A stretch of DNA of 64,000 nucleotides from Blautia massiliensis (ex Durand et al. 2017) (GTDB taxonomy: Bacteria; Bacillota; Clostridia; Lachnospirales; Lachnospiraceae), in NCBI RefSeq assembly GCF_001487165.1, contig NZ_LN913006.1:2758657-2822656 (forward strand), read 5' to 3'. Within the stretch, counting starts at the first letter, position 1; the number at the start of each line of letters is the position of its first letter. The position numbers and the translations under genes were made by a program. A model generated the notes under the pieces. It had not been told where the DNA came from. It ran no database searches and was given only the letters and a program-made list of their open reading frames with translations. Of the stretch, positions 25,237 through 41,714 are shown piece by piece.

Positions 25237-25237
25237 T

Positions 25238-26212: not shown

Positions 26213-26218
26213 GGAATT

Positions 26219-26707: not shown

Positions 26708-27377
26708 TCGGAAAATGCAGACTGATATATCTGAATTAGAAAACGGTCAGTTGGCAGAACAGCAATTGCCATCAGATTTTACGCTGGTAGTCCTGGCAGG
26801 TGGTGCCAGCAGCCATATGGGAAGGGAGAAGTCAGATCTGCTTTTAGATGGACAGACATTTTTGGAGATACAGATCGGAAAAGGATGTCAGTTGGGAGCA
26901 AAACAGATCTTAATTTCTGGATATCGTGGAACACAGTGTGGGGAAGAGATTGTGCCGGATCGAATTTCCGGTCAGGGTCCACTTGGCGGTCTGGAGAGCT
27001 GTTTTCGAAGGGCAAAGACAGAAAAATGCCTGGTGCTGGGGGTAGATACGCCGCTGGTACCTGTGGAAGAACTTCAAAATCTGTTGAAGTTCGCAATGGA
27101 AAAAGCCGACCAACCGGTGACTATGCTGTGTCATAATGGAAAAGAAGAATCGCTGATAGCGGTATATGATGCCAGACTTTATAAAGAGATCACAGATTTT
27201 CTGGAATCAGGAAGATCATCGGTGTATCGTTTTTTAAATACAGTGGGATATTCCCTATACCATACCAGTGCACCGGAAAACTATTTTCAGAATATCAATG
27301 ATCCGGAAATCTATAAGAAAGTCTGCACGGAATGCGAAATTGCTGATATTTTCATAAAGGAATCCGTTAAACTATAG
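26694..27377 (+). CDS. mobA: Molybdenum cofactor guanylyltransferase MobA
   Basis: 227 residues, overlapping mogA. The nucleotide-binding motif is TLVVLAGGASSHMGREKSDL; families normally have RMG where this has HMG, so a usual phosphate-binding Arg is replaced by His. ISGQGPLGGLESCF and LVLGVDTPLVPVEEL are the other signatures. MobA attaches GMP to make the dinucleotide cofactor. The N-terminus (about 20 residues) is longer than usual. A fragment of a second mobA-like 3' end follows directly. Confidence 0.88.
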   Translation: MPENNRKMQTDISELENGQLAEQQLPSDFTLVVLAGGASSHMGREKSDLLLDGQTFLEIQIGKGCQLGAKQILISGYRGTQCGEEIVPDRISGQGPLGGLESCFRRAKTEKCLVLGVDTPLVPVEELQNLLKFAMEKADQPVTMLCHNGKEESLIAVYDARLYKEITDFLESGRSSVYRFLNTVGYSLYHTSAPENYFQNINDPEIYKKVCTECEIADIFIKESVKL

Positions 27378-27539: not shown

Positions 27540-28403
27540 TTAAATGATTTTTCGGATAATAGCACTTCCATGCAGATCGCATACAGGATCTGCAAACAGG
27601 TGGTGTTTCAGGCAGAATTCGTCTACAGCTTTGTTACATCCGGAAAACTGGGTACTGTATACGTCATGGATCAGGAGAACTCCGCCGATAGACAGACGTT
27701 CATAAAATAGAGGTAATGCAGCAGCAGTTGGAGCATAGAGATCTGCATCTAATGATACGAAACAGAAAGTTTCATCGGTAATATCGGAAAAAGTATCCGG
27801 AAACCATCCTTTATGGATGATCACATGTGATGGATCAGGCATGATGCGAAGAACAGAGTCTACATCTGTAGAAGAAAAGTCACCTGTTTTAGCGCGAGAC
27901 AGATGCCTGGAGGTTTCTACGGCAATATCTTTTTCTGAAAAGCCTTCAAAAGTATCAAAAAGATGTATTTTTCGATCCGGAAAGGCCGTACTGATCAGGC
28001 AAGAAAAATCACCCTGGAAAACACCAAGTTCTGCCACATCTCCAGGGATATTTTGTTGATGTATTTGTTCGGCTAAAAGGCGCATAACCGCAACCCGTGC
28101 ATCAAACATGCGAAGTGCAGAAGGATCACAAAATGAACCGTGATAGCCCAAGTGCTCCATCTGCTGCATCATAGAACCACGCCGCTCTTCATCCAATACA
28201 CCAAGAATAATCAGATCAGGAAGAAGAGCAGCGGCCTTTGATGGAGAACAGATTGGGATATTACCAATAAATTGTCCATGTTTGCGCGGATCATTATCGG
28301 CAAAGCACATGATCTGATAGGAATTTCCAAGAAGTCGGGCAGTCATCTGCCCAATCTGTCCGGCACCGAATATAATAGTTTTGTAGATATGTTTTGTCAT
28401 CAT
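27540..28403 (-). CDS. Rossmann-TylF methyltransferase fusion
   Basis: 287 residues. Residues about 5-85 form a nucleotide-binding fold (TIIFGAGQIGQMTARLLGN, CFADNDPRKHGQFIGNIPI). Residues about 110-285 are a TylF/MycF-type SAM methyltransferase: GDVAELGVFQGDFSCLISTAF, IHLFDTFEGFSEKDI, VSLDADLYAPTAAALPLFY, GGVLLIHDVY. TylF relatives methylate sugar hydroxyls of macrolides, but here the gene is last in a minus-strand operon with XdhC, a phosphatase-HD protein and an NTP transferase. Start overlaps the XdhC stop (ATGA). Substrate unknown; a modified cofactor or glycoconjugate is conceivable. Confidence 0.82.
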   Translation of the reverse strand: MMTKHIYKTIIFGAGQIGQMTARLLGNSYQIMCFADNDPRKHGQFIGNIPICSPSKAAALLPDLIILGVLDEERRGSMMQQMEHLGYHGSFCDPSALRMFDARVAVMRLLAEQIHQQNIPGDVAELGVFQGDFSCLISTAFPDRKIHLFDTFEGFSEKDIAVETSRHLSRAKTGDFSSTDVDSVLRIMPDPSHVIIHKGWFPDTFSDITDETFCFVSLDADLYAPTAAALPLFYERLSIGGVLLIHDVYSTQFSGCNKAVDEFCLKHHLFADPVCDLHGSAIIRKII

Positions 28404-29425
28404 TTCATAGCAGCCTTTCTTTCAGCTCGAACCTGAATCATTTGTCCTGTGATAGATATTGCGATTTCAGCAGGTGTTTCTGCTTTAATATTAAGTCCCA
28501 CAGGCGTGATAATACGGTCTAATTCTCGCTCATCGATTCCATACTCTTCTACGAGACGATGAAATACACCAGCTCTTTTGGCGAGACTTCCAATGACGCC
28601 GATATAGCATGCAGGTGTGGCAAGAAGTTGTGCCTGCACAATCGTATCATAGGCATGACCTCGTGTCATGACACAGCAATAATCAGCATCTGTGATAGAA
28701 ATGCTCTGATCCAGATGATCAAAATCGCAAAGGATTGTCTCCGCTGCATCCGGGAAAAGAGCAGGATCTGTAAATTCCGGACGGTCATCCAGAACGATGC
28801 AGTGAAAGTCAACACTTGCAAGTATTGGTACCAGCTTTTGTGAAACATGCCCGCCTCCAAATACATAGACAGTTCCGGATGTACCGATTTGTTCTGTAAA
28901 CAGGTCACAGGTTTCATTGCGATGACGGCATGGTCTTGCAGATAAGGAAGATAAGATGGAAGAAGGAACATCAGCATTTCCAGTCAATCCATAGGATGCA
29001 CTGTACAGACTCATACCGGATGTAGCATGAAGATCACAGATCAGCCAGAAATCTTTTCGTTCTTTATATAATGTTTCAGCAGTTACTGCAAGTTCCATAA
29101 TAATAGGGTCATTATGGTCCAGATACTGGAAAAATACGGTAACATCACCACCACAAATCATACCGATATTCTCAACATCTTTGCGATTCAACCGGAATTC
29201 ATGTTCACAGGATTCTTTCTTTTCAAGAATATCAAGTGCCATAAGCTCTGCACGATGTTCGACAGAACCTCCGCCTATGGTTCCGGCAACTCGGCCTTTT
29301 TTTCCAACCAACATACGGGAACCGGCACCTCTTGGCGTTGATCCTGAGGAAGCAACGATGGATGCAAGCACAAGGTCGTTTTCTTTTTGAAATTCTTGTT
29401 GTATGATCTGAAATAAAGTTCTCAT
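28400..29425 (-). CDS. XdhC-family molybdenum hydroxylase maturation protein
   Basis: 341 residues with a strong ribosome site (AGGAGGTG). N-terminal XdhC domain: LVLASIVASSGSTPRGAGSRML, GTIGGGSVEHRAELMA; C-terminal Rossmann XdhC_C domain: GTVYVFGGGHVSQKLVPILASVD, CCVMTRGHAYDTIVQAQLL, YIGVIGSLAKRAGVFHRL. XdhC binds sulfurated molybdenum cofactor and inserts it into xanthine dehydrogenase-type enzymes. The likely client is the aldehyde oxidoreductase encoded divergently at 31962. Confidence 0.92.
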   Translation of the reverse strand: MRTLFQIIQQEFQKENDLVLASIVASSGSTPRGAGSRMLVGKKGRVAGTIGGGSVEHRAELMALDILEKKESCEHEFRLNRKDVENIGMICGGDVTVFFQYLDHNDPIIMELAVTAETLYKERKDFWLICDLHATSGMSLYSASYGLTGNADVPSSILSSLSARPCRHRNETCDLFTEQIGTSGTVYVFGGGHVSQKLVPILASVDFHCIVLDDRPEFTDPALFPDAAETILCDFDHLDQSISITDADYCCVMTRGHAYDTIVQAQLLATPACYIGVIGSLAKRAGVFHRLVEEYGIDERELDRIITPVGLNIKAETPAEIAISITGQMIQVRAERKAAMK

Positions 29426-29456
29426 ATATAAAACACCTCCTGTAATTTTCTATAAG

Positions 29457-30530
29457 TCATATCGTCATGTGACAGATGGTCTGTATCATATTTTGCAGAT
29501 CAAGAGCCTGTTTAAGCTGTCGTTCATGAGATTTCAAAGCTTCGGGACTGTTACACTTACACAGACTGTCCGCAAATCGTTTTTCGATGGTTACACGTTC
29601 GGTTTCCTGAATCAGTTTATCTGATAAAAAGACGATAGCCGCTTCATTCAGAAGTGTCTTCTGTAAACCATGATGTTGTGAAATAATCTGACTGATTTCA
29701 GTATAGCCTAATTGTAAGAAAAGATCACCACCTGTTTTGGTGTGATGTTTTTGAAGTCTGGCAATATCGTGAAGGAGTGCTCCGGAGCGAATCAGTTTTT
29801 TATTAAAAAAGTAACCATGAGATTCCAGCAGATCGCAGAAATGGCAAGCCAATTCAGTCACTGCATCACTGTGCGCTTGTACATGATGAGGAAGAGACAC
29901 CGAATCGCGAAGCATCCGGCATAGTTCGTCATGCAAGTCAGGATGAGGCAGCAGGTAAGTCGAATCAGATAAGGCAACATGATCGTTATCGTCTGCGTTC
30001 AGATGATAATAGGAACCACATGGAAGACGAAAATACTGTCTGGCATGCTGTTTTGAATCAAGCAAATACAGATAAGAAGAAATTACATCTGTATGAGAAA
30101 CAATCGCAATATCACCCTCAGAAGAACGAAGAATCTCATAAATTGCTTGCGAAAAACGCATGCCAGATGCGAAAGGAGTTTCTGCTCCTGGAATCGGGTA
30201 ATCAGGATTCATTCCACGTGCTTCATATATGTCCGGCCATCTTTTGCGTATCTCATCAAATGAAAGACCATCCCATTCTCCCAGATTTCGTTCTGTTAAA
30301 TCTGAGATAGTGATATGTGGAAGATCAGGTGTGATATGTGCAGCCGTTTCCATAGCTCTTGATAAAGGACTGCAGTAAACAGCAGTTATTTTATCATCCA
30401 GTTCTCCGTGAAGAAGGACTGACTGCAGATGTCCAAGCATAGATAAAGAAAAATCAGTCTGACCGATACAGTAAGAATGTTCATCTGGATATTGTGGTTT
30501 TCCGTGTCGAATAAGATAAAGATTACGCAT
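29457..30530 (-). CDS. Histidine phosphatase-HD domain fusion protein
   Basis: 357 residues from ATG 30530 (MRNLYLIRHGKPQYPDEHSY); the frame open from 30602 adds residues antisense to no homology. Residues 1-190 are a phosphoglycerate mutase-like phosphatase with RHG motif, CSPLSRAMETAAHI, and IVSHTDVISSYL. Residues about 220-340 are an HD phosphohydrolase (CHFCDLLESHGYFFNKKLIR, ALLHDIARLQKHHTKTGG). The gene overlaps its upstream NTP-transferase gene by 8 bp. Combining two phosphohydrolases with nucleotidyl transfer in a cofactor locus suggests clearing of nucleotide or phosphorylated cofactor intermediates; the substrate is unknown. Confidence 0.85.
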   Translation of the reverse strand: MRNLYLIRHGKPQYPDEHSYCIGQTDFSLSMLGHLQSVLLHGELDDKITAVYCSPLSRAMETAAHITPDLPHITISDLTERNLGEWDGLSFDEIRKRWPDIYEARGMNPDYPIPGAETPFASGMRFSQAIYEILRSSEGDIAIVSHTDVISSYLYLLDSKQHARQYFRLPCGSYYHLNADDNDHVALSDSTYLLPHPDLHDELCRMLRDSVSLPHHVQAHSDAVTELACHFCDLLESHGYFFNKKLIRSGALLHDIARLQKHHTKTGGDLFLQLGYTEISQIISQHHGLQKTLLNEAAIVFLSDKLIQETERVTIEKRFADSLCKCNSPEALKSHERQLKQALDLQNMIQTICHMTI

Positions 30531-31455
30531 TGAAAAATCCTCTGAAACACTTTTCAAATATTGCTTCGGAACAGGTACGTGTTTCCTCTGAAAAACGGGC
30601 ATATCGCTTCAAAAATTCTTCTCCGTATGGTGTCAGCTCACTGTGACTGCCCTTTACACCGCCCTGACTTCGAATAATCAGCGGTTCATGAAGCTGAGAT
30701 TCTAATGTATGGATCAGATTCCAGCTGGTGGAGTAGGAAATGTGCATGCGTTCGCAGGCATCACGAACAGATCCTGTTTCATGAATCAGTGTAAGCAGCG
30801 AATAAAGCTGTTCATCAAAGAAGACCTTTTCCCGTGCCAGCTGAATCTGAATCTCTGAACGGATCAGACTTTGATTGTGTGCACGAAGAAGTTCTACATA
30901 ATCCTCTGGTGTATCCGCATCATGAATGATTCCAGGATCTTCTACATTTAAACAATACATGGGAGTTCCACAATGTTCTACAGCACCCTTCAGACCAGTG
31001 TTTCCATCATTGCTTAAAATGGACTCAATTAATGAGGAACGAATCAGGATCGGATGACCTGGAGTTCCGTTACAGACCGGAGTGACAAGAGGCTGTCCAA
31101 GAGAAAGCATTTGTGTAACGGTATGTGCTGTGAATAGTGGAACATCTACAGGTGTAAAGAGTACCGTATCCACTTTGTCTTTTAAATATTCCAGTCCAAT
31201 CCTGACAGAATCAAACATATGAGTAGTTTCATAGTCCTCATTTCGAAGAAAAATAACATGATTGGAAGCAAGGTGGCGTTCCAGAGCATCCGCATTGTAT
31301 CCGGTTACCACCACTATTTTAGAGATTCCGGCCTGCCGGAAGTTATTAATCACACGCTGCGCGATGGAAATGGATCCAAGCTGAAGCATGGGCTTGAAGT
31401 CTCCCATTCGTGACGATTTCCCTGCAGCTACGATGAGAGCACCTGTCTGCATCAT
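30523..31455 (-). CDS. MobA-like NTP transferase fused to ModE-type HTH (DVU_1551 family)
   Basis: 310 residues. Residues 1-195 are a MocA/MobA-like nucleotidyltransferase (GALIVAAGKSSRMGDFKPML, VLFTPVDVPLF, GTPGHPILIRSSLIESIL). Residues about 210-300 form a LysR/ModE winged helix (LLTLIHETGSVRDACERMHI, SYSTSWNLIHTLESQLHEPL, LTPYGEEFLKRYARF). In MocA this fold makes the cytosine dinucleotide cofactor used by aldehyde/xanthine oxidases. The fusion could couple cofactor synthesis to transcription control. First gene of the leftward operon, divergent from the oxidoreductase. Confidence 0.88.
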   Translation of the reverse strand: MMQTGALIVAAGKSSRMGDFKPMLQLGSISIAQRVINNFRQAGISKIVVVTGYNADALERHLASNHVIFLRNEDYETTHMFDSVRIGLEYLKDKVDTVLFTPVDVPLFTAHTVTQMLSLGQPLVTPVCNGTPGHPILIRSSLIESILSNDGNTGLKGAVEHCGTPMYCLNVEDPGIIHDADTPEDYVELLRAHNQSLIRSEIQIQLAREKVFFDEQLYSLLTLIHETGSVRDACERMHISYSTSWNLIHTLESQLHEPLIIRSQGGVKGSHSELTPYGEEFLKRYARFSEETRTCSEAIFEKCFRGFFNA

Positions 31456-31664
31456 AGATACCTCCTAAAAATAACATTGTACAAATTTGATATTATTATA
31501 GCATGAAAAGTGAGGATAAATAGTAAAATTTTTAAATAAAGTAATAAAAACAATATAAAAAAGGGCGAAAATAGCCAACTAATAATTATTTACAATTTGT
31601 AAAACTGTACAAAATTATGATAACATGAAATTATACAAAATAATGTAAACAGGAGAACGTTTCC
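31456..31664. promoter_or_regulatory. Divergent control region of the aldehyde oxidoreductase locus
   Basis: Very AT-rich 209 bp between divergent operons. It contains the palindromes TTGTACAA (31477-31484) and TTTACAA-T-TTGTAAA (31589-31603), and a further ACTGTACAAAATTATGATAAC immediately after. These are plausible operators; consensus promoters are not clear enough to place. The ModE-like fusion encoded on the left is a candidate regulator. Confidence 0.45.
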
Positions 31665-31925
31665 ATGGATAAGATTTTTGAAATTACCGCAAAAGAAGTT
31701 ACGATACAGGTAAAAGATGAGCGCACAGGAGAGCAATACAGTCGGACACTTCCGATTGATTATTATGAGAATGCGAATGTTTTAAAACTCAGCGGTGAGA
31801 ATCTGGACGGAAGCAGTTCTTCCATTGTTTTCTATTCTGTCAGAGGAATGGAAAGACTTAAAGATCTGACGGGTAAGGGAGCCGATCATGATCCATGTGG
31901 AACACATAAGTCAGAAGATTTGTAA
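31665..31925 (+). CDS. Small uncharacterised protein preceding the aldehyde oxidoreductase
   Basis: 86 residues (MDKIFEITAKEVTIQVKDER; VFYSVRGMERLKDLTG; DPCGTHKSEDL end) with ribosome site AGGAG. I do not recognise the family. It is soluble, probably beta-rich, with a single Cys near the C-terminus. It is the first gene of the rightward operon and lies 36 bp before the oxidoreductase, so it may be an accessory factor or small subunit. Confidence 0.6.
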   Translation: MDKIFEITAKEVTIQVKDERTGEQYSRTLPIDYYENANVLKLSGENLDGSSSSIVFYSVRGMERLKDLTGKGADHDPCGTHKSEDL

Positions 31926-31961
31926 CATCGGAACGTGTATTTTTTAAAGGAGGAATGAAAC

Positions 31962-34724
31962 ATGATTAAAAAGACATTGAAGATCAATGGTGTGGAGCGA
32001 ATCCTTATTCTTGATAAGGATGAGACACTGGCTCAGGTACTTCGTGAGCATCTTCTTCTTACAGGATGTAAGATCGGTTGTGGAGAAGGTCATTGCGGAG
32101 CATGTAATGTTATTATGAACGGAAAAGTTACAAGATCCTGTATTTACAAGATGAGCCGTGTTCCGGACAATGCAGAGATCACAACAATCGAGGGTGTGGG
32201 AACAATTTCTGATATGCATCCGATACAGGTTGCATGGATGGCATATGGATGTGCACAGTGTGGTTTCTGTTCACCAGGTTTTATTATTTCAGCAAAGGTT
32301 CTTCTCGATAATAATCCGAGCCCTACCCGTGAAGAAGTGAGGGACTGGTTTAACAAGCAGCGTAATCTCTGTCGTTGTACAGGTTACAAGCCGCTTATCG
32401 ATGCGACCATGGCGGCAGCAGCAGTTATGCGTGGCGAGATGACTAAAGAAGACCTCGTATTCAAGCAGACAGGTGATTCTATCGTCGGTACAAACTATAT
32501 CCGTCCATCAGCAGCACAGAAGGTAACAGGTACCTGGGATTTCGGTGCAGATGATGCATTAAAGATGCCGGAGGGAACTCTTCGTCTTGCACTTACACAG
32601 GCCAAGGTTTCTCACGCAAATATTCTCAGTATCGATACAACAGAAGCAGAGAGTATGCCGGGAGTTGTTCGTGTTATTACAGCGAAGGACATTAAGGCAG
32701 CAGGCGGAACCAACAAGATCAATGGTCTTGTAATGCTTCCGAAACACAATAAGACAGACGGATTTGAGCGTCCTGTACTCTGCGACGAAAAGATCTTTCA
32801 GTTTGGTGATGCGATTGCGATCGTAGCTGCGGATACAGAAGAACATGCACGTGCAGCAGCAGATGCAGTTAAGGTGGAGATCGAAGAACTTCCTGCATAT
32901 ATGAACGCAATGGATGCAATCGCACCGGATGCAGCAGAGATCCATCCTGGTACTCCAAACGCATTTTTTGAGACAAACTGTATCAAGGGACCGGACTTTG
33001 ACTGGGACAGCATTCCGGATTCACAGCAGGTTGAGATCGAGTCCTACTGTTCACGCCAGCCTCATCTTCACCTTGAGCCGGACTGTGGTTATGGATATAT
33101 TGATGAAGACGGTATGATAACAGTGCATTCCAAATCTATCGGTATACATCTTCATATGCCTATGATCGCAGATGGTATCGGTGTACCAATGGAAAACTTA
33201 AGACTTGTTCAGAACCATGCAGGCGGAACATTTGGTTACAAGTTCTCACCGACAAATGAGGCTCTGATTGGTGCAGCTGTTAAGATTCTGGAACGTCCGG
33301 TATCGCTGGTATTTAATCAGTTCCAGAACATTACTTATACAGGAAAGAGATCTCCTGCATTTATGAATATTAAGCTTGCAGCAGATGAAAATGGTAAACT
33401 CTTAGCACTTTGGGGTAACAACTATGTAGATCACGGTCCATATTCAGAATTTGGCGATCTGCTTACCATGAGACTTTCTCAGTTTACAGGCGCAGGTTAT
33501 GGAATTAATTCTATTTGTAATAAATCAACAACCGTATTTACAAACCATGCATGGGGCTCCGCATTCCGTGCTTATGGTTCACCACAGTCTTATATGGGAT
33601 CTGAGATTGCGATTGACGTGCTGGCAGCTAAGATGGGAATCGATCCGTTTGATATCCGTGAAATGAACTGCTATAAAGAATCAGAGGGCACTACCATCCC
33701 GACAGGTTATCCACCGGAGGTATATTGTGAGGAAGATTTGTTTAAGAAAGCACGTCCATTGTATGAAGCGGCGAAAAAACGTGTTGCCGAAAAGAATGCA
33801 GCTTCTGACGGAAAGATGAAATATGGTATCGGTGTATCTCTTGGAGTATACGGTTGTGGTCTTGATGGTGTTGATACATCAAATGCATTTGCAGAATTAA
33901 ATCCGGATGGAACCGTTACGATGTATGCTGCATGGGAAGATCATGGACAGGGGGCTGATATGGGTGTTCTTGTATCATCTCATGAAACACTGCGTCAGGC
34001 AGGAATCAGACCGGAACAGATTAAACTGGTTATGAATGATACGAAGACATGTCCGAATGCAGGACCTGCAGGAGGATCACGCTCACAGGTTATGTCAGGT
34101 AATGCATGTCGTCTGGCTGCAGAAAATCTTGTAGCAGCAATGAAGAAAGAAGACGGAACATTCCGTACTTATGATGAGATGGTAGCAGAAGGGCTTGCAA
34201 CAAAATATGAAGGTAACTGGGTAACTACATTCTGTGCAGATCATCCGATCGATCAGGATACCGCACAGGGCGATCCATTTGCAACTTATATGTATACTAT
34301 CTTCCTGCCGGAAGTTGCTGTTAATACAGAAACAGGTAAAGTTACCGTTGAGAAATTTACTTGCGTAGCTGACGTAGGTACGATCATGAACAGACTTCTT
34401 GTAGAAGGTAATTTCTATGGTGGTCTTGTACAGGGTATCGGTCTTGCTCTTTCGGAAGATTTTGAAGATTTGAACCATGACACCACTTTGAAGAATTGTG
34501 GTATTCCATATCCAAAGGATGCTCCGGATGATATTGAACTTCACTTCAATGAAACATATCGTCCAAGTGGTCCTTACGGTGCGGCTGGTTGTGGTGAGGC
34601 TCCACTGGATGCTCCACATCCTGCAATCCTGAATGCAATCTTTAATGCGACAGGTGCACGTATTACACGTATCCCTGCCCGTCCGGAAAGGGTTCTTGCA
34701 GCATTAAAAGAACTTGAGAAATAA
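31962..34724 (+). CDS. Molybdopterin-dependent aldehyde oxidoreductase (Mop-like)
   Basis: 920 residues, a single-chain xanthine oxidase-family enzyme without FAD domain, as in Desulfovibrio Mop. First [2Fe-2S] domain: GCKIGCGEGHCGACNVIM and RSC; second: YGCAQCGFCSPGFIISAKVL and NLCRCTGYKPL. The molybdenum domain has GGTFGYKFSP, AFRAYGSPQSYMGSE, NAGPAGGSRSQV and the catalytic Glu in YGAAGCGEAPLDAPHPA. It would oxidise aldehydes or hydroxylate heterocycles with water as oxygen donor, passing electrons to the 2Fe-2S clusters and then to the neighbouring Fe-S protein. Codon choice is optimised, suggesting high expression. Confidence 0.93.
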   Translation: MIKKTLKINGVERILILDKDETLAQVLREHLLLTGCKIGCGEGHCGACNVIMNGKVTRSCIYKMSRVPDNAEITTIEGVGTISDMHPIQVAWMAYGCAQCGFCSPGFIISAKVLLDNNPSPTREEVRDWFNKQRNLCRCTGYKPLIDATMAAAAVMRGEMTKEDLVFKQTGDSIVGTNYIRPSAAQKVTGTWDFGADDALKMPEGTLRLALTQAKVSHANILSIDTTEAESMPGVVRVITAKDIKAAGGTNKINGLVMLPKHNKTDGFERPVLCDEKIFQFGDAIAIVAADTEEHARAAADAVKVEIEELPAYMNAMDAIAPDAAEIHPGTPNAFFETNCIKGPDFDWDSIPDSQQVEIESYCSRQPHLHLEPDCGYGYIDEDGMITVHSKSIGIHLHMPMIADGIGVPMENLRLVQNHAGGTFGYKFSPTNEALIGAAVKILERPVSLVFNQFQNITYTGKRSPAFMNIKLAADENGKLLALWGNNYVDHGPYSEFGDLLTMRLSQFTGAGYGINSICNKSTTVFTNHAWGSAFRAYGSPQSYMGSEIAIDVLAAKMGIDPFDIREMNCYKESEGTTIPTGYPPEVYCEEDLFKKARPLYEAAKKRVAEKNAASDGKMKYGIGVSLGVYGCGLDGVDTSNAFAELNPDGTVTMYAAWEDHGQGADMGVLVSSHETLRQAGIRPEQIKLVMNDTKTCPNAGPAGGSRSQVMSGNACRLAAENLVAAMKKEDGTFRTYDEMVAEGLATKYEGNWVTTFCADHPIDQDTAQGDPFATYMYTIFLPEVAVNTETGKVTVEKFTCVADVGTIMNRLLVEGNFYGGLVQGIGLALSEDFEDLNHDTTLKNCGIPYPKDAPDDIELHFNETYRPSGPYGAAGCGEAPLDAPHPAILNAIFNATGARITRIPARPERVLAALKELEK

Positions 34725-34774
34725 GCTTAATTCATAATGTGGTTGGAGTAAAAGCTGCCAACTGCGATATAATC

Positions 34775-34800
34775 AGGGGAGACGGGAAACTGCCTCCCCT
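34775..34800 (+). promoter_or_regulatory. Intergenic hairpin after the oxidoreductase
   Basis: AGGGGAG (34775-34781) pairs with CTCCCCT (34794-34800), loop of 12. There is no long T-run, only TTTACAG, so it may attenuate transcription or stabilise the oxidoreductase mRNA end and set different levels for the following genes. Confidence 0.5.
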
Positions 34801-34825
34801 TTACAGACGAAAGGAGTATCAGGTT

Positions 34826-37120
34826 ATGACATACATACAGGAGAGGGGTTCTACTCACGTTTATCATGTAAATCGAATGTCAAAAGAAGAGATGGATCAT
34901 ATGATCAGTCTCTGCGTCCATGAACAGCCGGCCTACTGTGTTGCAGCCTGTCCTTTCAAAATGGATACAAAAGAGATGCTGTATTATGCTGCAAAAGGAA
35001 ATTTTAAGAAAGCGTTGGCAATTTATGAGAAAATTACACCATTTCCAATGATTCTCTGTGATGGATGTACGGCACCTTGCGAAGATAATTGCAAGCTTTG
35101 TGAACTTGGTGATGGTGTCTCCATACGAGAAGTAGAACGTGCGATTGTCCGGTATGGAGAACCGGGAAGACGAAGCAGTGTATTTCGCATGAGAAAGAAG
35201 AAAAGGGCAGCAATCTTTGGTTCTGGATTATTTCCACTGTTTCTTGCAGGGGAACTGGAAAAGAAAATGTATCCTACGACAATTTATTGTAAGGAAGAAG
35301 ATTATGAAAGCTATATTGCAGCGGCAGCCGGACATCTTTTGGAATCAGACCGCAGCAATGAAGCGAAACGTCTGAAATCTATGGATCTTTCTTTTGAATT
35401 TGGATGCAGTTTGAATCTTTCGTTTATCAGAGAAAAAATGGAACTGGCAGATGTGGTATGCGCATCAGAAGAAGTGGCAAAAATGTTAGCTCCGGAAGAA
35501 GCAGCAGATGTCGAGATTATGTTAAGAGAACAGGCAAAGATTGTCAGCGGACCTGCGGAATCTGTGATGGATGCGGCTTTTGCCGCAAAGCGGGCAGCTT
35601 TGACAGTGGATCTTCTGGTACAGAATTTATCGCCGCACAGCAACAGAGGCAGTGAAGGAGCAGTGACTACCAAGCTTTATACGAACATGGAAGGAATCCA
35701 TGGATCGAATAAGATTTTCTGTGGTCAGGATGGGTATTCAAAAGAAGAAGCTGTAGAAGAAGCAAAACGATGTATTCAGTGTCATTGTGACGAATGCATG
35801 AAAGGCTGTGTGTATTTAAGTGAATATCAAAAACATCCGGGTTTATTAGCCCGTGAGATCTATAATAATACGCAGATTATCATGGGAGATCATCCGATGA
35901 ACAAACCGATGAATGCCTGTGCCCTCTGTGGACAGTGTACGGTGATCTGTCCGAATGGATTTGATATGAGTCAGGTGTGTAAGTCAGCAAGAGAAAATAT
36001 GGTATCCACAGATAAGATGCCGCTGGCGCCACATGAATTTGCACTGATGGACATGTTATTTTCAAATTCAGAGGCTTTTTTGAGCAGACTCCAGCCGGGA
36101 TATGAAACTTGCAGATATGTATTTTTCCCGGGCTGTCAGGCAGGTGCGATAGCGCCGGATGTGGTTATACAGGCATACGAAGATTTAAGTAATCGGGTAG
36201 CTGGAGGCGTTGCTCTGATGCTGGGATGCTGTGGTGCAATCAGCGAATGGGCGGGCCGCTATGAAATGACAGAAAAAGTAAATGAGCAGCTGAAACAGGA
36301 ACTAGCCAAGCTTGGTGATCCGATCATCATAGCAGGTTGTCCAACCTGTATGAAGCAGCTAAAAGAAAGTATTGGAGCGCATGTTATAGGAATCTGGGAA
36401 ATTTTGAGAAAAATCGGACTTCCACAGCAGGCGAAAGGACTGGAGATACCGGTTGCCATACATGATGCCTGTGGTGCCAGAGGGGATGCACAGACACAGG
36501 ATATTATAAGAGAACTTTTGTTGGATATGGGATGTACCGTTGAAGATACAGAATATTCCAGAGATTTGTCTCCATGTTGTGGATATGGAGGTCTGACGGC
36601 ATATGCCAATAAAGATATGGCAGCGAAAATGACAGAAAAGTGTCTGGAACGTTCCGATGCACCATATATTACATACTGCATGGCATGCAGAGACCGATTT
36701 GCCAGAGAGGGAAGAGAATCCAGACATATCATGGAACTTCTGTATGGTGCAAATGCCAGCAACATGCCTGATATCAGTGAGAAACGCTACAACAGGCTCA
36801 TATTGAAACAGACACTTTTAAAAAACATCTGGAATGAGGAACCGATCATGGAGAAAAAAGACTATACTGTTGCCTATACAGAAGAGGCAATCCATATGAT
36901 GGATGAGCGCATGATACTGAAAAGTGATGTGGAACGTGTGTTATCAGATTACAGAGAAAATCAGGAAGCAATCCTGGATGAAGAAACAAAAGAACTGGTG
37001 ACAAGAAGCAGACTGGGAAATGTCACATTCTGGGTGCGGTTTGTGGAAACAGAAGACGGATATCTGGTACACAGAGCATACAGTCATCGAATGAATATTA
37101 TGAAAAGGGTGGGACAGTAA
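34826..37120 (+). CDS. Dicluster Fe-S / CCG-domain electron-transfer protein (degenerate pyridine nucleotide-disulfide oxidoreductase)
   Basis: 764 residues from ATG 34826 (ribosome site AAAGGAG); the frame from 34739 is not homologous. Order: N-terminal DPYD/GltD-like Fe-S domain (CVAACPFKM, LCDGCTAPCEDNCKLCELGD); a degenerate Rossmann stretch (AAIFGSGLFPLFLAGELEKK) that has lost the usual GxGxxG spacing; a 2[4Fe-4S] ferredoxin (CIQCHCDECMKGC, CALCGQCTVICPNGF); two heterodisulfide-reductase-type CCG domains (FFPGCQAGAIAP, LGCCGAISEW; DACGARGDAQ, LSPCCGYGGL, TYCMACRDRF); and a C-terminal helical part. It probably accepts electrons from the aldehyde oxidoreductase. Stop overlaps the next start (TAATG). 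Confidence 0.88.
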   Translation: MTYIQERGSTHVYHVNRMSKEEMDHMISLCVHEQPAYCVAACPFKMDTKEMLYYAAKGNFKKALAIYEKITPFPMILCDGCTAPCEDNCKLCELGDGVSIREVERAIVRYGEPGRRSSVFRMRKKKRAAIFGSGLFPLFLAGELEKKMYPTTIYCKEEDYESYIAAAAGHLLESDRSNEAKRLKSMDLSFEFGCSLNLSFIREKMELADVVCASEEVAKMLAPEEAADVEIMLREQAKIVSGPAESVMDAAFAAKRAALTVDLLVQNLSPHSNRGSEGAVTTKLYTNMEGIHGSNKIFCGQDGYSKEEAVEEAKRCIQCHCDECMKGCVYLSEYQKHPGLLAREIYNNTQIIMGDHPMNKPMNACALCGQCTVICPNGFDMSQVCKSARENMVSTDKMPLAPHEFALMDMLFSNSEAFLSRLQPGYETCRYVFFPGCQAGAIAPDVVIQAYEDLSNRVAGGVALMLGCCGAISEWAGRYEMTEKVNEQLKQELAKLGDPIIIAGCPTCMKQLKESIGAHVIGIWEILRKIGLPQQAKGLEIPVAIHDACGARGDAQTQDIIRELLLDMGCTVEDTEYSRDLSPCCGYGGLTAYANKDMAAKMTEKCLERSDAPYITYCMACRDRFAREGRESRHIMELLYGANASNMPDISEKRYNRLILKQTLLKNIWNEEPIMEKKDYTVAYTEEAIHMMDERMILKSDVERVLSDYRENQEAILDEETKELVTRSRLGNVTFWVRFVETEDGYLVHRAYSHRMNIMKRVGQ

Positions 37121-37341
37121 TGGCAGTAGAGAGAACATATTATACGATTGATCCGGAAGGAAAGCTGACCTGCATGAAATGTAAGGTTCCTCTTGTAAAA
37201 GGAAAAGCAAAATTTATGTATCTGGAAAATGGATTTCCTGTGGAAATGCCTGTCTGCCCAAAGTGTGGGTTTGTGTATGTTCCGGAAGAACTCGCACTTG
37301 GAAAAGTGCTCGCGGTGGAGCGTGCACTGGAGGATAAATAG
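37120..37341 (+). CDS. Small two-CxxC protein (DVU_1557 redox family)
   Basis: 73 residues with two CxxC pairs, LTCMKCKVPLVKGK and MPVCPKCGFVYVPEELALGK, forming a rubredoxin-like or zinc-ribbon knuckle. Members of this family sit between the dicluster protein and methyltransferase in DVU_1551-1559-type loci. Iron-binding redox protein or structural zinc cannot be told apart from sequence. Overlaps its upstream gene by one base and abuts the next. Confidence 0.8.
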   Translation: MAVERTYYTIDPEGKLTCMKCKVPLVKGKAKFMYLENGFPVEMPVCPKCGFVYVPEELALGKVLAVERALEDK

Positions 37342-37875
37342 ATGAACAGGCATCCGGGAGGGGAAGCGCAGACGCTTCATCTTCTGGAGAACATAGAATG
37401 GAAAAAAGAAATGAAAGCACTGGATCTTGGAGCAGGAGAAGGAGACACGGTACGAATCCTGAAATCATTTGGGCTGGAAGCACATGGCGTGGATCTTTTC
37501 CCACGGGGCAGTGATGTGGAAATAGGCGATTTTCTGCATTTGCAGTATTCATCAGACAGTATAGATCTTTGCATCAGCCAGTGTGCATTTTTTGTCAGCA
37601 GAGATCAGAAAAATGCACTATCTGAATGTTGGCGTGTTTTGAAAAAGGGAGGTTTTCTATTATTGTCAGATCTGGATACTGGAAATCTTTCAGAAATGGC
37701 AGAACAGACAGGATTTACCATTCTCCGGCAGGAGGATCAGACGTTACTTTGGCGGGAATATTATCTGGAAGCAATCTGGAATGATTCGTTCTGCTGCGAA
37801 GAGTATAAGATTCTGCAGAAAGAATATAAAGGAAAGAAGCTGCGCTATACCATGTTGGTTGGCAGAAAGGAGTAG
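37342..37875 (+). CDS. SAM-dependent methyltransferase (DVU_1556 family)
   Basis: 177 residues. Class I methyltransferase motifs: MKALDLGAGEGDTVRILKSF (motif I), HGVDLFPRGSD, CISQCAFFVSRDQKNAL, ECWRVLKKGGFLLLSDL. N-terminal MNRHPGGEAQTLHLL is characteristic of this subfamily. It starts directly at the previous stop. With a radical SAM protein, a CoA ligase and a Cys-rich protein around it, it might modify a small molecule or the cofactor; substrate unknown. Confidence 0.85.
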   Translation: MNRHPGGEAQTLHLLENIEWKKEMKALDLGAGEGDTVRILKSFGLEAHGVDLFPRGSDVEIGDFLHLQYSSDSIDLCISQCAFFVSRDQKNALSECWRVLKKGGFLLLSDLDTGNLSEMAEQTGFTILRQEDQTLLWREYYLEAIWNDSFCCEEYKILQKEYKGKKLRYTMLVGRKE

Positions 37876-37878
37876 CAC

Positions 37879-38313
37879 ATGGATCTTTATGAAAGAATCA
37901 TAGAACTTAGCAGTATGGGTTATCATTGCTCACAAATGGTTATGATTATGACACTGGAAGCCATAGGTGAGGAAAATCCACAGCTTGTAAAGGCTTTGGG
38001 AGGTCTTGGCGGTGGCATTGGTTACTGTGGAGATACCTGTGGCTGCTTGACAGGAGGAGCCTGTGCGATAGGTTTGTTCCTTGGCAATCTGGCTCCGCAG
38101 GAGAAAGAAGATATACAGATGAAACCGGCTGTGCAGGAATTATATCAGTGGTTCCATAAGAAGACCGAAGAAGAATTTGGTGCTTTTTATTGTAAGGATA
38201 TCACTTCTAATTTGGATTGGGGAGTGATTATGGAGCAATGTCCTGCGCTGATTGCAGATACTTATACGAAAGTGATAGAAATACTGACAGAACGGGGAAT
38301 ATTGGAACTATGA
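37879..38313 (+). CDS. C-GCAxxG-C-C family protein (DVU_1555 type)
   Basis: 144 residues. Conserved cysteines: SSMGYHCSQMV, then CGDTCGCLTGGACAIGLFLGN (the GCxxGG core), then FGAFYCKDI and IMEQCP. Family proteins are thought to bind an Fe-S cluster or metal through these Cys and are often linked to redox or selenium/molybdenum genes. Overlaps the radical SAM gene (ATGA), so the two are coupled and may physically interact. Confidence 0.85.
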   Translation: MDLYERIIELSSMGYHCSQMVMIMTLEAIGEENPQLVKALGGLGGGIGYCGDTCGCLTGGACAIGLFLGNLAPQEKEDIQMKPAVQELYQWFHKKTEEEFGAFYCKDITSNLDWGVIMEQCPALIADTYTKVIEILTERGILEL

Positions 38314-39635
38314 TTACGCTGGGTAAAACAAAAAGTGTATGCCCGATATGTATGAAAGTACTTACGGCAAAAAAATGTATTGGTGAAGATGGCATTTATC
38401 TGGTGAAAGAATGTGATATCCACGGAAAGTTTCAGACACTGATCTGGGAAGGAACGGCAGCAGAGTATCTTTCCTGGGGAAGAGAAAACCTGTCTGCGGA
38501 GACTCCGGTAAATCCCAAAATCAAAGAGAAATCCTGCCCGGATAATTGTGGACTCTGTGAGGAGCACGAACGAAAAGGCTGTTGTATGATACTGGAAGTG
38601 ACAAAGCGCTGCAATATGCACTGCCCGGTCTGCTTTGCTTCGGCAGGAGAATGTCTGGAAAACGGTGATCTTTCAATTGATGAAATAGAAAAGCAATATG
38701 ATTTTCTGATGGATCATGGAGGACCATTCAATATTCAGCTCTCAGGTGGAGAACCAACCATGCGGGAGGATCTTCCGGAGATCATACGTATGGGAAGAGA
38801 AAAAGGGTTTACATTTTTTCAATTGAATACCAATGGAATCCGTCTTGCGCAGGAAGCAGGATATGCCAGAAAACTAAAAAAAGCAGGACTGAATACAGTA
38901 TTTCTTCAGTTTGACGGTGTCACAGATGATGTGTATCAGACATTGCGCGGACGCTCTATGATAGAACTGAAAGAAAAGGCTGTGTTAAACTGTTCGGAAG
39001 CGGAACTGGGAATTGCCCTGGTACCTGTCATTGCGCCAGGAGTAAATGACATGCAGGTTGGAGATATTCTGAAGTTTGCGATGGATCATATGCCATTTGT
39101 AAGAGGAGTACATTTCCAGCCGATCAGCTATTTTGGCAGATGTTCTCAGCAGCGTCCACAAGCTCCGATTACCATACCAAAGATGTTGAAGCTGATCGAG
39201 GAACAGACTGACGGGCTTATGAAAAGCAAGGATTTCGCCGGTGGTGGAGCAGAGAATCCATACTGTTCTTTTCATGCAAGTTATCTGAAAAAAGGTGAGG
39301 GGGAACTGAAACTTTTGGAAAAGAAATCAGGCAGAGGATGTTGTTGTACTACCAGCGATAATTCCAGACAGTATGTGGAAAATCAGTGGAGCTATAGCAC
39401 AAAAAAATTTGATGATGGAGAAATGACACAGACAGATGCGCTGGATGAATTCCTGATCCGGGTTCATAATGAAACTTTTGCAGTATCAGGGATGATTTTT
39501 CAGGATGCATGGAATCTGGATCTTGAACGTCTGAAAAGATGTTATATCTGCGAGGTGGATTCTGATTATGGAATGGTGCCGTTTTGTGCATATAATCTGA
39601 CGAATTCGAAAGGAATATATTTATACAGAAAGTGA
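38310..39635 (+). CDS. trsS: Radical SAM protein TrsS (Tes/MJ0619-like)
   Basis: 441 residues from ATG 38310; longer frame is not homologous. N-terminal Cys pairs (VCPICMKVLTAKKC, CDIHGKF, CPDNCGLCEEH) precede the radical SAM motif VTKRCNMHCPVCFASAGE (Cx3Cx2C) and the SAM-contacting SGGEPTMREDLPEIIRMG. This layout is shared with the MJ0619/tetraether synthase (Tes) branch, which makes C-C bonds at unactivated carbons or methylates pterin precursors. A C-terminal SGRGCCCTTSDNS offers extra cluster ligands. TrsS relatives are selenoproteins in some genomes; no in-frame TGA is present here, so this is a Cys version. Reaction unknown. Confidence 0.85.
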   Translation: MITLGKTKSVCPICMKVLTAKKCIGEDGIYLVKECDIHGKFQTLIWEGTAAEYLSWGRENLSAETPVNPKIKEKSCPDNCGLCEEHERKGCCMILEVTKRCNMHCPVCFASAGECLENGDLSIDEIEKQYDFLMDHGGPFNIQLSGGEPTMREDLPEIIRMGREKGFTFFQLNTNGIRLAQEAGYARKLKKAGLNTVFLQFDGVTDDVYQTLRGRSMIELKEKAVLNCSEAELGIALVPVIAPGVNDMQVGDILKFAMDHMPFVRGVHFQPISYFGRCSQQRPQAPITIPKMLKLIEEQTDGLMKSKDFAGGGAENPYCSFHASYLKKGEGELKLLEKKSGRGCCCTTSDNSRQYVENQWSYSTKKFDDGEMTQTDALDEFLIRVHNETFAVSGMIFQDAWNLDLERLKRCYICEVDSDYGMVPFCAYNLTNSKGIYLYRK

Positions 39636-40831
39636 AACGATCGAATATAGATGCAATGATCTGTAAGCAGGAAGGTATTACAGAGATTACAAGAGATGAA
39701 ATACACAGAATACAGCTGGAGAAATTAAATATTGTACTGAAGAGAGAGAAAGAACGAGAGGGTTTTTACCGAGATTTGCCGGAAAGACTGGAAAGCCTGA
39801 TAGATTTGAGAAGCCTTCCTTTTACGACAGAAACAGATCTGGCACGAGATGGAGGCAGGATGCTGCTTTGCTCCCAGGGGGAAGTACAGAAAGTGATATC
39901 AGAACAGACAAGCGGAACTACCGGTGCCGGTAAACGTGTATTCTATACAGAGGGAGACTGTGAACACACCATAGAACTTTTTATGGCAGGTCTGGGTGAA
40001 TTTATTTATCCTGGAAGTATAACGATGGTGGCTATGCCATTTTCAGGTCCTTTTGGATTAGGAGAACTGATCGCGGAGGCAATCAGACGTCTGGGAGCAA
40101 AACCTCTTTCAACCGGGACAGGAAGAACTTATGGCGAACTGAACAGGATTCTGGAAGAGGAGCAGCCGGATACGTATGTGGGAATGCCGACGGCATTGCT
40201 GTCCATGCTTCGAATGTGCGGAAAAGGCAGTATAAAAAGAGCACTGGTATCCGGAGATGCCTGTCCGAAAACTGTCATGAAAGCAATCGAAGAAATTCTG
40301 CAAACACGACTTTGGCCGCACTATGGTTCCAGAGAGATGGGGCTTGGAGGTGCCATTTGCTGCACGGCGCATGAGGGCATGCATATGCGGGAAAACCATT
40401 GTATTACAGAGATTATAGATGAGAACGGAAATGTGCTGCCGGACGGTAAATGGGGAGAACTGGTGATTACAACCATTGGAATGGAAGCACAGCCGTTGAT
40501 TCGATATCGAACCGGTGACTGGTCAAGGATCATTCCAGGAAGATGCCTCTGTGGAAGTGAAATAAAACGCCTGGACTTTGTAAAGCGGATGGATCCATTG
40601 GGAAGTATCAGAGAGATGGATGAATTACTGTTTGAGATTCCGGAACTGGTAGATTATTGTGTGAAAATTGTAGATGGAAAAAAGGAAATTACAGCGCTTT
40701 TTACATCGGACAATGGAGAAGAACGAATCAGGAGTGTTTTGGAAGAGAAGGATATTCGTTCATGGAACTGCAAAAAAGCAAAGTGGGAAGATGGGGCGCT
40801 GTATCCTGGCAAACGAGTTACAAGGCAGTGA
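39632..40831 (+). CDS. AMP-dependent CoA ligase, PaaK-like (DVU_1553 family)
   Basis: 399 residues from GTG 39632, which overlaps the TrsS stop (GTGA). Adenylate-forming signatures: SEQTSGTTGAGKRVFYTEGD (P-loop), WPHYGSREMGLGGAICC, and RYRTGDWSRIIPGRCLCGSE with KRLDFVKR (hinge region). Similar to phenylacetate-CoA ligases. It would activate a carboxylic acid, possibly the product of the aldehyde oxidoreductase, to an adenylate or CoA thioester. Last gene of the operon, ended by a perfect hairpin. Confidence 0.88.
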   Translation: MKRSNIDAMICKQEGITEITRDEIHRIQLEKLNIVLKREKEREGFYRDLPERLESLIDLRSLPFTTETDLARDGGRMLLCSQGEVQKVISEQTSGTTGAGKRVFYTEGDCEHTIELFMAGLGEFIYPGSITMVAMPFSGPFGLGELIAEAIRRLGAKPLSTGTGRTYGELNRILEEEQPDTYVGMPTALLSMLRMCGKGSIKRALVSGDACPKTVMKAIEEILQTRLWPHYGSREMGLGGAICCTAHEGMHMRENHCITEIIDENGNVLPDGKWGELVITTIGMEAQPLIRYRTGDWSRIIPGRCLCGSEIKRLDFVKRMDPLGSIREMDELLFEIPELVDYCVKIVDGKKEITALFTSDNGEERIRSVLEEKDIRSWNCKKAKWEDGALYPGKRVTRQ

Positions 40832-40862
40832 TTTCGTGGTATCATGGAATCACTGCCTTGCC
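40821..40862. terminator. Bidirectional terminator between the CoA ligase and DUF5714 genes
   Basis: CAAGGCAGTGATT (40821-40833) and AATCACTGCCTTG (40848-40860) form a perfect 13-bp stem. The left arm contains the ligase stop codon, and the stem lies just before the convergent DUF5714 stop. Confidence 0.75.
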
Positions 40863-40864
40863 TG

Positions 40865-41596
40865 TTATTCAGGATAGTATGGACAATCTTCCTGGATGCA
40901 TTCGCGATTATCTTCGCAGTATTTACACGTTATAGAAGACAACGGAATGTTTACAGAACAAAACTGACTGTAAAAATGAACGGCTTCTTCGATGGCAATT
41001 CTGCTGGTACGTTTGCAGCAGCGAGGTCCACCAACATCTGCCAGTCTGGATAAAATAATGGAAACAAGTTTTTGAGGAAACGGCCATGCATCTTTGTGAA
41101 GTGGACTGGATCCAGTCATAACGGACATGAAAATACCGGCTCCGGCAGCAGCTCCACAGACACCCCAGTAACCACAGGTACCGCCCGGAACCTGCTTCGC
41201 TCTTTTACAGATTTCAGATAGTGCAGCATCGTAATCCATATGTTCTCCATTATTGCGAAACGCTGTCAGAAGAACACATGGAACAATTGCATGATGCTCC
41301 GGTCCATGCATATGTACAGATGGAAGATCCATAATTTTTTCCAGAAGAAGCAAAGCATCTTTTTCGGTACTGTCTCTGAGCGCTGCGATTACCGGAGCAT
41401 ATGTGCCATAGCTGTGACAGGCATCACAGATAAAGTGACTATTTTCACAGACCGCATTGGTTAATTGCTCTTTATGGCAGATACTACACGTCTGAATAGA
41501 GCTTTCAGCACGATACGTAATAGGAGCACCACAAATCAGACATCCGGAAAAATGTTCCGCTTCACCACAACAACAGGAATTATTCGTATGATCCAT
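40865..41596 (-). CDS. DUF5714 cysteine-rich protein
   Basis: 243 residues from ATG 41596, which follows GGAGGTG; the frame from 41692 lacks homology upstream. Contains many Cys: NSCCCGEAEHF, CLICGAPITY, QTCSICHKEQLTN, FICDACHSYG, then a GGTCGYWGVCGAAAGAGIFM core, PRCCKRTSRIAIEEAV and a C-terminal CKYCEDNRECIQEDCPYYPE. The GxCGxWGxCGAAxGxG core resembles the C-GCAxxG-C-C proteins in logic. Convergent with the oxidoreductase operon, and I infer it belongs to the same system. Likely binds metal clusters; function unknown. Confidence 0.82.
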   Translation of the reverse strand: MDHTNNSCCCGEAEHFSGCLICGAPITYRAESSIQTCSICHKEQLTNAVCENSHFICDACHSYGTYAPVIAALRDSTEKDALLLLEKIMDLPSVHMHGPEHHAIVPCVLLTAFRNNGEHMDYDAALSEICKRAKQVPGGTCGYWGVCGAAAGAGIFMSVMTGSSPLHKDAWPFPQKLVSIILSRLADVGGPRCCKRTSRIAIEEAVHFYSQFCSVNIPLSSITCKYCEDNRECIQEDCPYYPE

Positions 41597-41714
41597 TTGA
41601 TTCACCTCCGGAGAATTTATTTTAATAGTGTTAACGATGTAAAAAGTATAACATAAAATGAAAAAGTAATGATAAAGTATCTTGACAATCATGTTACTTT
41701 GGGTATATGATTTG

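Follow-up and report, generated by a model that had tools for sequence, protein, structure and literature searches.

A locus within a 64,000-nucleotide stretch of the genome of Blautia massiliensis (ex Durand et al. 2017) (contig NZ_LN913006.1, positions 2758657-2822656; this whole stretch is referred to as the window) is, as judged from its sequence, a divergent copy of a widespread and already catalogued gene cluster that surrounds a molybdenum (Mo) enzyme oxidising aldehydes. The cluster, termed the trs operon here, joins a single-chain aldehyde oxidoreductase (AOR) to the radical S-adenosylmethionine (SAM) enzyme TrsS and a recurrent set of partners, and it is also found, intact, around the classic crystallised AOR of Desulfovibrio gigas. 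No paper explaining the operon was found in a literature search outside which most subscription papers lie, and the operon around the D. gigas AOR appears to be unexplained in the searchable literature. The window comes from a genome of 3.7 Mb with a completeness of 100.

The D. gigas AOR was the first enzyme of the xanthine oxidase (XO) family with a solved structure (PMC10223205) and its published preparation came from cells of D. gigas itself (PMC3877041). One genome (G517) encodes a protein with 100% identity to this AOR over 206 residues, and its full 907 amino acids (aa) match structures 1sij/1vlb end to end. At this locus (L172) AOR is followed in order by a nitroreductase-like protein, a dicluster iron-sulfur protein, a CxxC protein, a methyltransferase (MT), a C-GCAxxG-C-C protein, TrsS, a ligase, XdhC and a histidine phosphatase/HD protein. 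The TrsS scores 567-574 bits and has no internal stop, and no match to the nucleoside triphosphate (NTP) transferase of the cluster was found in the stretch. The nitroreductase-like gene, named by reading, lies at 7918-8571 of L172, between the AOR and dicluster genes. The cofactor of the D. gigas enzyme was seen at 1.28 A to be a plain pyranopterin cytosine dinucleotide in which an oxo group replaces the usual sulfido ligand (PMC10223205, PMC3877041), and enzyme batches were mostly fully active, with essentially equal kinetics for dissolved crystals and as-isolated protein (PMC3877041). Because the trs operon of D. gigas is intact and the cofactor is ordinary, TrsS and the MT leave no lasting, visible change on the AOR cofactor in this organism, a change labile to purification or another target being possible. 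A preliminary description of the window locus had supposed that the system builds or uses an unusual modified cofactor; as a cofactor of AOR itself this is not supported, given the D. gigas enzyme, and the simplest idea for the operon, a lasting modification of the cofactor, is thereby removed.

Gene content and order of the cluster

All of the genes named in the preliminary description were found as open frames with NCBIfam or Pfam matches, and are given here with the genes adjoining them (ORF, open reading frame; CoA, coenzyme A):

21178-27377: Mo-cofactor block adjoining the locus (MoeA-like, short MoeA, FdhD, MOSC, MoaC as a short ORF, MoaA, Mog-like, MobA)
27540-28403, minus strand: TylF-type methyltransferase (PF05711, 83 bits), outside the core
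28400-29425, minus strand: XdhC-family AOR maturation factor (NF045664, 302 bits against a cut-off of 350)
29457-30602, minus strand: histidine phosphatase-HD fusion (PF00300 and PF01966), the HD part being the C-terminal half of NF045665
30523-31455, minus strand: MocA-like NTP transferase with a ModE-type DNA-binding domain (NF045665, 198 bits over positions 2-202, cut-off 315; TIGR00637, 53 bits)
31665-31925, plus strand: ORF86, a small conserved protein (86 aa) directly 5' of AOR, with homologues at related loci
31962-34724, plus strand: single-chain Mo AOR of the D. gigas Mop type (NF045668, 1519 bits, cut-off 1100)
34739-37120, plus strand: dicluster/twin-CCG (HdrD-type) protein with a GltD-like N-terminus (NF045663, 787 bits, cut-off 530)
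37120-37341, plus strand: four-cysteine (two CxxC) redox protein, DVU_1557 family (NF045645, 94 bits, cut-off 60)
37342-37875, plus strand: class I MT, a reduced DVU_1556 relative (NF045667, 109 bits, below the cut-off of 155)
37879-38313, plus strand: C-GCAxxG-C-C protein, DVU_1555 family (NF045669, 151 bits, cut-off 103)
38310-39635, plus strand: TrsS, radical SAM enzyme of predicted tetraether synthase (Tes) fold (NF045646, 597 bits, cut-off 490)
39632-40831, plus strand: PaaK-like AMP/CoA ligase, DVU_1553 family (NF045666, 332 bits, cut-off 300)
40865-41692, minus strand: convergent DUF5714 protein (PF18978, 212 bits; NF045648 MbdU, 137 bits, cut-off 600)

The plus-strand genes are tightly coupled, as had been proposed from their overlaps, with successive junctions from AOR to the ligase of 14, -1, 0, 3, -4 and -4 bases (taking the TrsS ATG at 38310). 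For the histidine phosphatase-HD fusion an ATG near 30530 is a likelier start than that of the annotated ORF, and the true start of the dicluster protein is uncertain, an ATG near 34877 agreeing with its relatives. The convergent DUF5714 gene is present as described, but the end first given for the locus, 41596, falls within it. Rfam and tRNA searches of the window gave no matches. The whole source genome holds one TrsS over cut-off and one AOR of the NF045668 family, with a weak XO-type gene (330 bits against the cut-off of 1100) elsewhere.

The DVU_1551-1559 set of D. vulgaris Hildenborough (NF045645, NF045646 and NF045663-NF045669) has nine counterparts in the window. The likeness had been noticed before, and it holds: family cut-offs are passed by six of the seven plus-strand products from AOR to the ligase (AOR, TrsS, the dicluster protein and the DVU_1557, DVU_1555 and DVU_1553 families), the exception being the MT. 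The MT, together with XdhC and the NTP transferase of the minus strand, is counted as a family relative only, and because these three score below their equivalog cut-offs, though each finds its best family here, the locus is filed as what its sequence indicates to be a real but divergent variant of the NCBIfam-catalogued DVU_1551-1559/TrsS set. The gene order, previously regarded as not explained, follows on the plus strand the DVU numbers in the NCBIfam names (those of TrsS, XdhC and the dicluster protein by elimination, from the model names alone), and the same contiguous order recurs at other loci (see below). The window differs from the Desulfovibrio set in that the XdhC/NTP transferase half is inverted, the NTP transferase is joined to ModE and HD to histidine phosphatase, the MT is reduced, and ORF86, TylF and DUF5714 are extra. 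Two papers have DVU1559 in a table (PMC10920352, PMC11784015), another has DVU1558 (PMC3114432) and two more have the name C-GCAxxG-C-C (PMC10434189, PMC9312934).

The window AOR matches 1dgj at 1132 bits and 1sij at 1104 bits. It is homologous over its full length to the enzymes of D. desulfuricans (1dgj) and D. gigas (1sij/1vlb), lies about equally far from both, on sequence evidence, and has the same N-terminal cluster cysteines; eight N-terminal cysteines, which we take to be the [2Fe-2S] ligands, are kept in 48/48 sequences. Against the model of the selenium-dependent Mo hydroxylase (TIGR03311) it reaches 407 bits with a cut-off of 830 and is not a member. The hydroxylase cluster shares an XO-family Mo enzyme with the window locus and has XdhC- and MocA-like helpers; the TrsS module is not known to belong to it.

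A scan of 84,980 species genomes gave 567 confirmed TrsS-like stretches, of which the best 80, from Bacillota, Desulfobacterota, Chloroflexota, Campylobacterota, an Acidobacteriota and a Rhodoferax bin, were taken as loci. TrsS is flanked by at least 9 kb on both sides in 39 of these 80 (termed well-flanked), and profiles built from the window proteins, used at thresholds of our own, found AOR in 35 of the 39, the dicluster protein in 37, CxxC in 38, MT in 35, C-GCAxxG-C-C in 36 and the ligase in 36; XdhC (27), the NTP transferase (26) and histidine phosphatase/HD (26) are less frequent. The complete seven are present at 32 of the 39, and by a strict count the contiguous string AOR, dicluster, CxxC, MT, C-GCAxxG-C-C, TrsS, ligase is kept at 16, from several phyla. 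ORF86 was seen at three of the well-flanked loci, TylF at one and DUF5714 at none, and the last two are on this ground regarded as local additions. The fewest partners were found at L116, a Clostridium ragsdalei locus with TrsS alone, and L131. Two further C. ragsdalei stretches carry AOR, dicluster, CxxC, ligase, XdhC, NTP transferase and histidine phosphatase/HD (L173) and AOR in two pieces, dicluster, CxxC, MT, C-GCAxxG-C-C, TrsS and XdhC (L186), and AOR was over cut-off in seven of eight genomes checked, the exception being that of L131. Distances among six cluster proteins at 37 loci correlate at 0.35-0.80, each of the 15 pairs lying above all 999 permutations; this is weak evidence of linkage, as common ancestry alone could produce it. 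Thirteen neighbour clusters recur at four or more of the 80 loci and resemble, by reading, MoeA, Mo/W-type transport, cysteine desulfurase, regulators, iron alcohol dehydrogenase (Fe-ADH), tungsten AOR (W-AOR) and two without a name.

Co-occurrence and copy number of TrsS and AOR

The preliminary description held that the genes form one system, to be abandoned if TrsS, ligase and methyltransferases occurred independently of the oxidoreductase in most genomes. In a sample of 299 Bacillota, the phylum of the window, drawn evenly with one genome per species, AOR was over cut-off in 19 genomes and TrsS in 17, with 16 common to both. When hits at contig ends were included (TrsS in G072; AOR in G073 and G076) both were present in 18 genomes, AOR only in three, TrsS only in none and neither in 278, so that all 18 TrsS-positive genomes carry AOR. 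The ligase subfamily was over cut-off in 15 genomes, all of them TrsS-positive, with looser PaaK relatives (E<=1e-50) in 165. The genomes with AOR only are G073, G083, which has a Tes-like match of 332 bits, and G207. Independent occurrence in most genomes was thus not seen in this sample, and the view that the trs cluster and AOR form one system is supported.

A second sample comprised 288 genomes of the family of G299 (locus L151, Desulfovibrio sp.), called Desulfovibrionaceae here, in which AOR was called with the N-terminal 206 residues of the D. gigas enzyme (E<=1e-70) and a limit of E<=1e-110 was applied to TrsS. Both were found in 172 genomes, AOR only in 17, TrsS only in nine and neither in 90. 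The figure of 17 is an overcount, since at least one and probably three of these cases are false, TrsS being broken up by inserts. Stretches were read from five of the 17: in G331, G332 and G471 TrsS was matched in three pieces at the expected place, and the frame of G332 (L205), the one read among these three, is open with low-complexity inserts; the contig of G326 stops right after AOR, and G571 has AOR alone on 13.5 kb. TrsS was matched in two or three segments, and missed by the strict E-value cut, in L204, L205, L206 and L207, all from Desulfovibrio relatives.

Two to four AOR hits were found in 24 of the 288 genomes, with one TrsS in 21 of these, two in one (G387) and none in two (G475, G571). 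Seventeen stretches of about 20 kb were selected, either for a separation between the AOR and TrsS hits or for the listing of a further AOR. Four of the five TrsS stretches proved to hold the complete cluster with an AOR of its own, which disposes of the apparently unlinked TrsS of G572, G528, G553 and G562; the fifth (G308) is a cluster without AOR, and there the two are truly apart. No further core gene scored above 100 bits on any of the 12 AOR stretches away from TrsS (11 from eight of the 24 multi-AOR genomes and one from G308, picked for their distance from TrsS); the highest value, 98 bits, belonged to a dicluster match in L228. Among Bacillota, an additional AOR may carry its own dicluster gene without TrsS (L175 in G293). 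Because one TrsS stands beside several AORs, with AOR loci that are solitary, a shared, trans-acting service is favoured over a step devoted to one substrate, and the trs module looks like one that serves the AORs of a cell jointly rather than a substrate-specific pathway.

TrsS, tetraether synthase and flanking genes

An AlphaFold model of a TrsS family member (L039), made from a 17-row alignment with a mean predicted local distance difference test score (pLDDT) of 85 and a predicted template modelling (TM) score (pTM) of 0.89, was compared with solved structures. Tes structures 7tol and 7tom gave TM scores of 0.80/0.72 and 0.81/0.72 at 34% identity over 477-479 columns, and the other 48 structure rows shown had query-normalised TM scores of 0.33-0.44. 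On this model TrsS has the Tes fold, the likeness running across the chain and taking in the N-terminal zinc-ribbon-like part and the radical SAM core. Furthermore, with M. jannaschii Tes as query and an assumed database size of 1e11, 82/82 TrsS sequences (from the 80 loci, the window and D. gigas) matched residues 24-340 of 7tol at E<1e-50 with 37-49% identity. TrsS differs from Tes in that it falls below the Tes cut-off (345 bits for the window protein against 450, NF045702), is linked to AOR and has two extra cysteines (C92 and C320 of the window) that are invariant in 82/82 sequences and stand opposite non-cysteines in the Tes alignment, the second at a ragged end. Methylation of a pterin by TrsS, suggested by HMPTM, the Pfam name of the N-terminus, was considered and dropped, the closest solved structure being that of tetraether synthase (7tol). 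The name presumably stands for the pterin methyltransferase MJ0619, which we take to have been re-assigned later to Tes.

The fold and the degree of identity would accommodate a bacterial tetraether or membrane-lipid synthase, with AOR and the ligase recycling fatty aldehydes. This is very unlikely given the score below the Tes cut-off, the two invariant cysteines that face non-cysteines in Tes and the recurrent neighbours, which by reading resemble Mo genes and not lipid genes. Bacterial Tes homologues have been counted at E<1e-50 and identities of over 20 or 30% with M. acetivorans Tes as query (Zeng et al., PMC8941075), and a Black Sea study gives the distribution of such homologues with their role as unconfirmed (PMC11868695). 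Since our own search had another Tes as query and assumed the database size, it signals that confusion may arise, not that the earlier counts are wrong; those for Desulfobacterota, Chloroflexota and Bacillota may include AOR-linked TrsS and are worth checking where these groups are taken as makers of membrane-spanning lipids.

TrsS can be a selenoprotein according to the name of NF045646 and a table in a review of selenoproteomes (PMC13188914). A stop was seen in one of 27 TrsS match rows (L051), and in a check of three TrsS for in-frame TGA that of L051 proved to be its terminal stop, L138 had an open frame throughout the available part and L144 had an XX gap with a frame change. At L116 (8234-10761) and L174 (4856-9719) TrsS lies beside or a few genes from what reads as a CobW/P47K-like GTPase, a possible link to metal insertion.

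On the minus strand, the NF045665 model consists of an NTP transferase (positions 2-202) and an HD part (200-358), which in the window lie in separate fusions. In C. ragsdalei L173 a 368-aa ORF has the NTP part and one phosphatase/HD match, the other match being on a separate 203-aa ORF, an arrangement which, judged from the lengths, fits an NTP transferase-HD protein with a free phosphatase. That domains are swapped between fusions argues that NTP transferase, HD and phosphatase may act together, and the ModE domain suggests control by molybdate. In the Mo-cofactor block MoeA-like, short MoeA, FdhD, MOSC and MobA are NCBIfam matches below cut-off, and MoaC, MoaA and Mog-like were named by ORF reading; the short MoeA (22467-23261) is of 264 aa only, covers about positions 77-232 of the MoeA model and may be broken or split. 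ORF86, absent from the preliminary description, matched nothing in NCBIfam or Pfam at E 0.001; homologues were found at five of seven same-family loci read and at five of 80 named TrsS loci, and in same-family relatives they lie near AOR and share a conserved tail of GxG(P/A)DxxxC type. DUF5714, which is related to the double-selenoprotein MbdU model (NF045648), directly precedes TrsS in L176 and L185, from two genomes of one other Bacillota genus. Elsewhere in the window a radical SAM mobile pair protein A (43196-44793; TIGR04471, 429 bits) with a second radical-SAM-like ORF beside it suggests a mobile piece, 7852-10496 holds a gene of the TnpB family as well as a Ccr-related large serine recombinase, and a short ORF at 41924-42169 resembles, by reading, an N-terminal remnant of a cation-transport ATPase.

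Possible functions of the cluster

The dicluster protein keeps nine dicluster cysteines and the ten of its two C-CC-CxxC motifs in 52-53 of 53 sequences, so that a complete twin-CCG site of HdrD type is predicted, and its N-terminus matches flavoproteins of the GltD/NfnA type. The CxxC protein has four cysteines in 69/69 sequences. The ligase has many invariant positions among 75 sequences, and its closest solved relatives are phenylacetate-CoA ligases (PDB 4r1l, 1.5e-27). In the MT family C81 is present in 64/64 sequences and C115 in 51/64, and in the alignment these correspond to human AS3MT Cys156 and Cys206 (8xt7, where the chain numbering is shifted by 37 in both cases), the two residues confirmed to bind arsenic in that enzyme (PMC3877260).

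This alignment raises the idea of protection against metalloids, in which the MT would methylate arsenite and TrsS and its partners would make organo-arsenic or organo-selenium compounds. ArsM models match 17/17 family MTs and arsenite inhibits the D. gigas AOR (PMC10223205), but MenG/UbiE models match the same MTs at similar strength, the best PDB profile matches of the MT are other methyltransferases (6uv6 in one search; 4pne in another, where AS3MT came fifth), the window MT is without the second cysteine and no arsenic gene was recognised by reading among the recurrent neighbours. We regard it as highly improbable.

A further possibility, and one that we hold to be rather unlikely, is maturation or repair, with TrsS, the MT and the C-GCAxxG-C-C, CxxC and dicluster proteins acting transiently on apo- or inactivated AOR and leaving no trace, for example by supplying a labile ligand of Mo or by returning an oxidised dithiolene to its reduced state. 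In inactive D. gigas AOR a dithiolene sulfur is indeed oxidised, and dithionite together with sulfide restores activity (PMC3877041); moreover the cluster is rich in cysteines, is accompanied by XdhC and, at eight of the 80 loci, by a cysteine-desulfurase-like gene, and exists as a single set beside several AORs. On the other side, the D. gigas enzyme can be purified in air with its activity unaffected and most batches were fully active (PMC3877041), and neither a PaaK-like ligase nor a Tes-type radical enzyme has an obvious role in reduction.

The preliminary description had favoured a substrate pathway, in which TrsS and the MT would make or modify an aldehyde precursor, AOR would oxidise it and the ligase would convert the acid to a CoA ester. 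The conservation of the ligase, over its family cut-off in the window, agrees with this, as do neighbours that read as Fe-ADH-like at six loci and W-AOR-like at five. It is nevertheless unlikely: the D. gigas AOR accepts short, long and aromatic aldehydes (PMC3877041), one TrsS may stand beside up to four AORs, and no gene for an organic-substrate transporter or for CoA esters was recognised, by reading, among the 13 recurrent neighbour clusters.

The reading that we put forward, tentatively and short of even confidence, is that the trs genes form a conserved accessory operon which serves Mo AORs of the XO family in trans by making a small redox partner, and of which relatives of Desulfovibrio usually have one per genome. 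Family membership suggests that the cytosine-dinucleotide cofactor would be made and inserted by the MocA-like NTP transferase together with XdhC and the MoeA-like neighbour, that AOR would oxidise aldehydes over a broad range, and that electrons would leave it via the four-cysteine protein and the flavo-iron-sulfur dicluster protein with its twin-CCG site of disulfide-reductase (HdrD) type. TrsS, the AS3MT-like MT, the C-GCAxxG-C-C protein and the PaaK-like ligase would jointly synthesise a small molecule that is not the cofactor of AOR, most likely a redox carrier bearing a thiol or selenol; here the ligase would adenylate a carboxylate, TrsS would, like Tes, join an unactivated carbon to sulfur or to another carbon, the MT would handle a cysteine-bound soft atom and the dicluster protein would use the carrier as electron partner of AOR. 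Two features favour the carrier over maturation alone: the pairing of an adenylating ligase with a Tes-type radical enzyme, which points to the building of carbon compounds, and the fact that mature AOR needs no unusual cofactor. It is preferred to a substrate pathway because one TrsS stands beside several AORs and the recurrent neighbours read as MoeA, Mo/W-type transport, cysteine desulfurase and regulators.

Several observations weigh against this proposal. AOR occurs without TrsS in three of the 21 Bacillota AOR genomes, among them G207 (L181), which has AOR and dicluster genes and no TrsS match, and solitary AOR copies may not use the trs operon at all. Some Bacillota have two TrsS (G042; L092/L107 and L097/L108, each pair within a single genome), so that one per genome is not general, and TrsS with inserts can slip past the E<=1e-110 cut, so that copies are possibly undercounted. 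Not every CCG protein is a disulfide reductase, examples being the GlpC and LutA types, and the loop that binds flavin adenine dinucleotide (FAD), kept in most of the dicluster relatives printed, is degraded in the window, where the scheme is possibly part-degenerate. The window MT keeps C81 and is without the family C31 and C115, the second cysteine being missing also in five of seven same-family relatives. The carrier is a predicted molecule, suggested by family likeness, and is the weakest step. Finally, flavodoxin accepts electrons from D. gigas AOR in vitro (PMC10223205), and catalysis can thus do without a special carrier.

In its fullest form the carrier proposal would mean that anaerobes of several phyla, including D. 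gigas, have a new thiol or selenol redox cofactor to which the electrons of AOR pass via a soluble HdrD-type protein, on a principle resembling that of coenzyme M/B and heterodisulfide reductase; we think this quite unlikely as it stands. The link to D. gigas opens the job of the cluster to direct knockout tests in Desulfovibrio.

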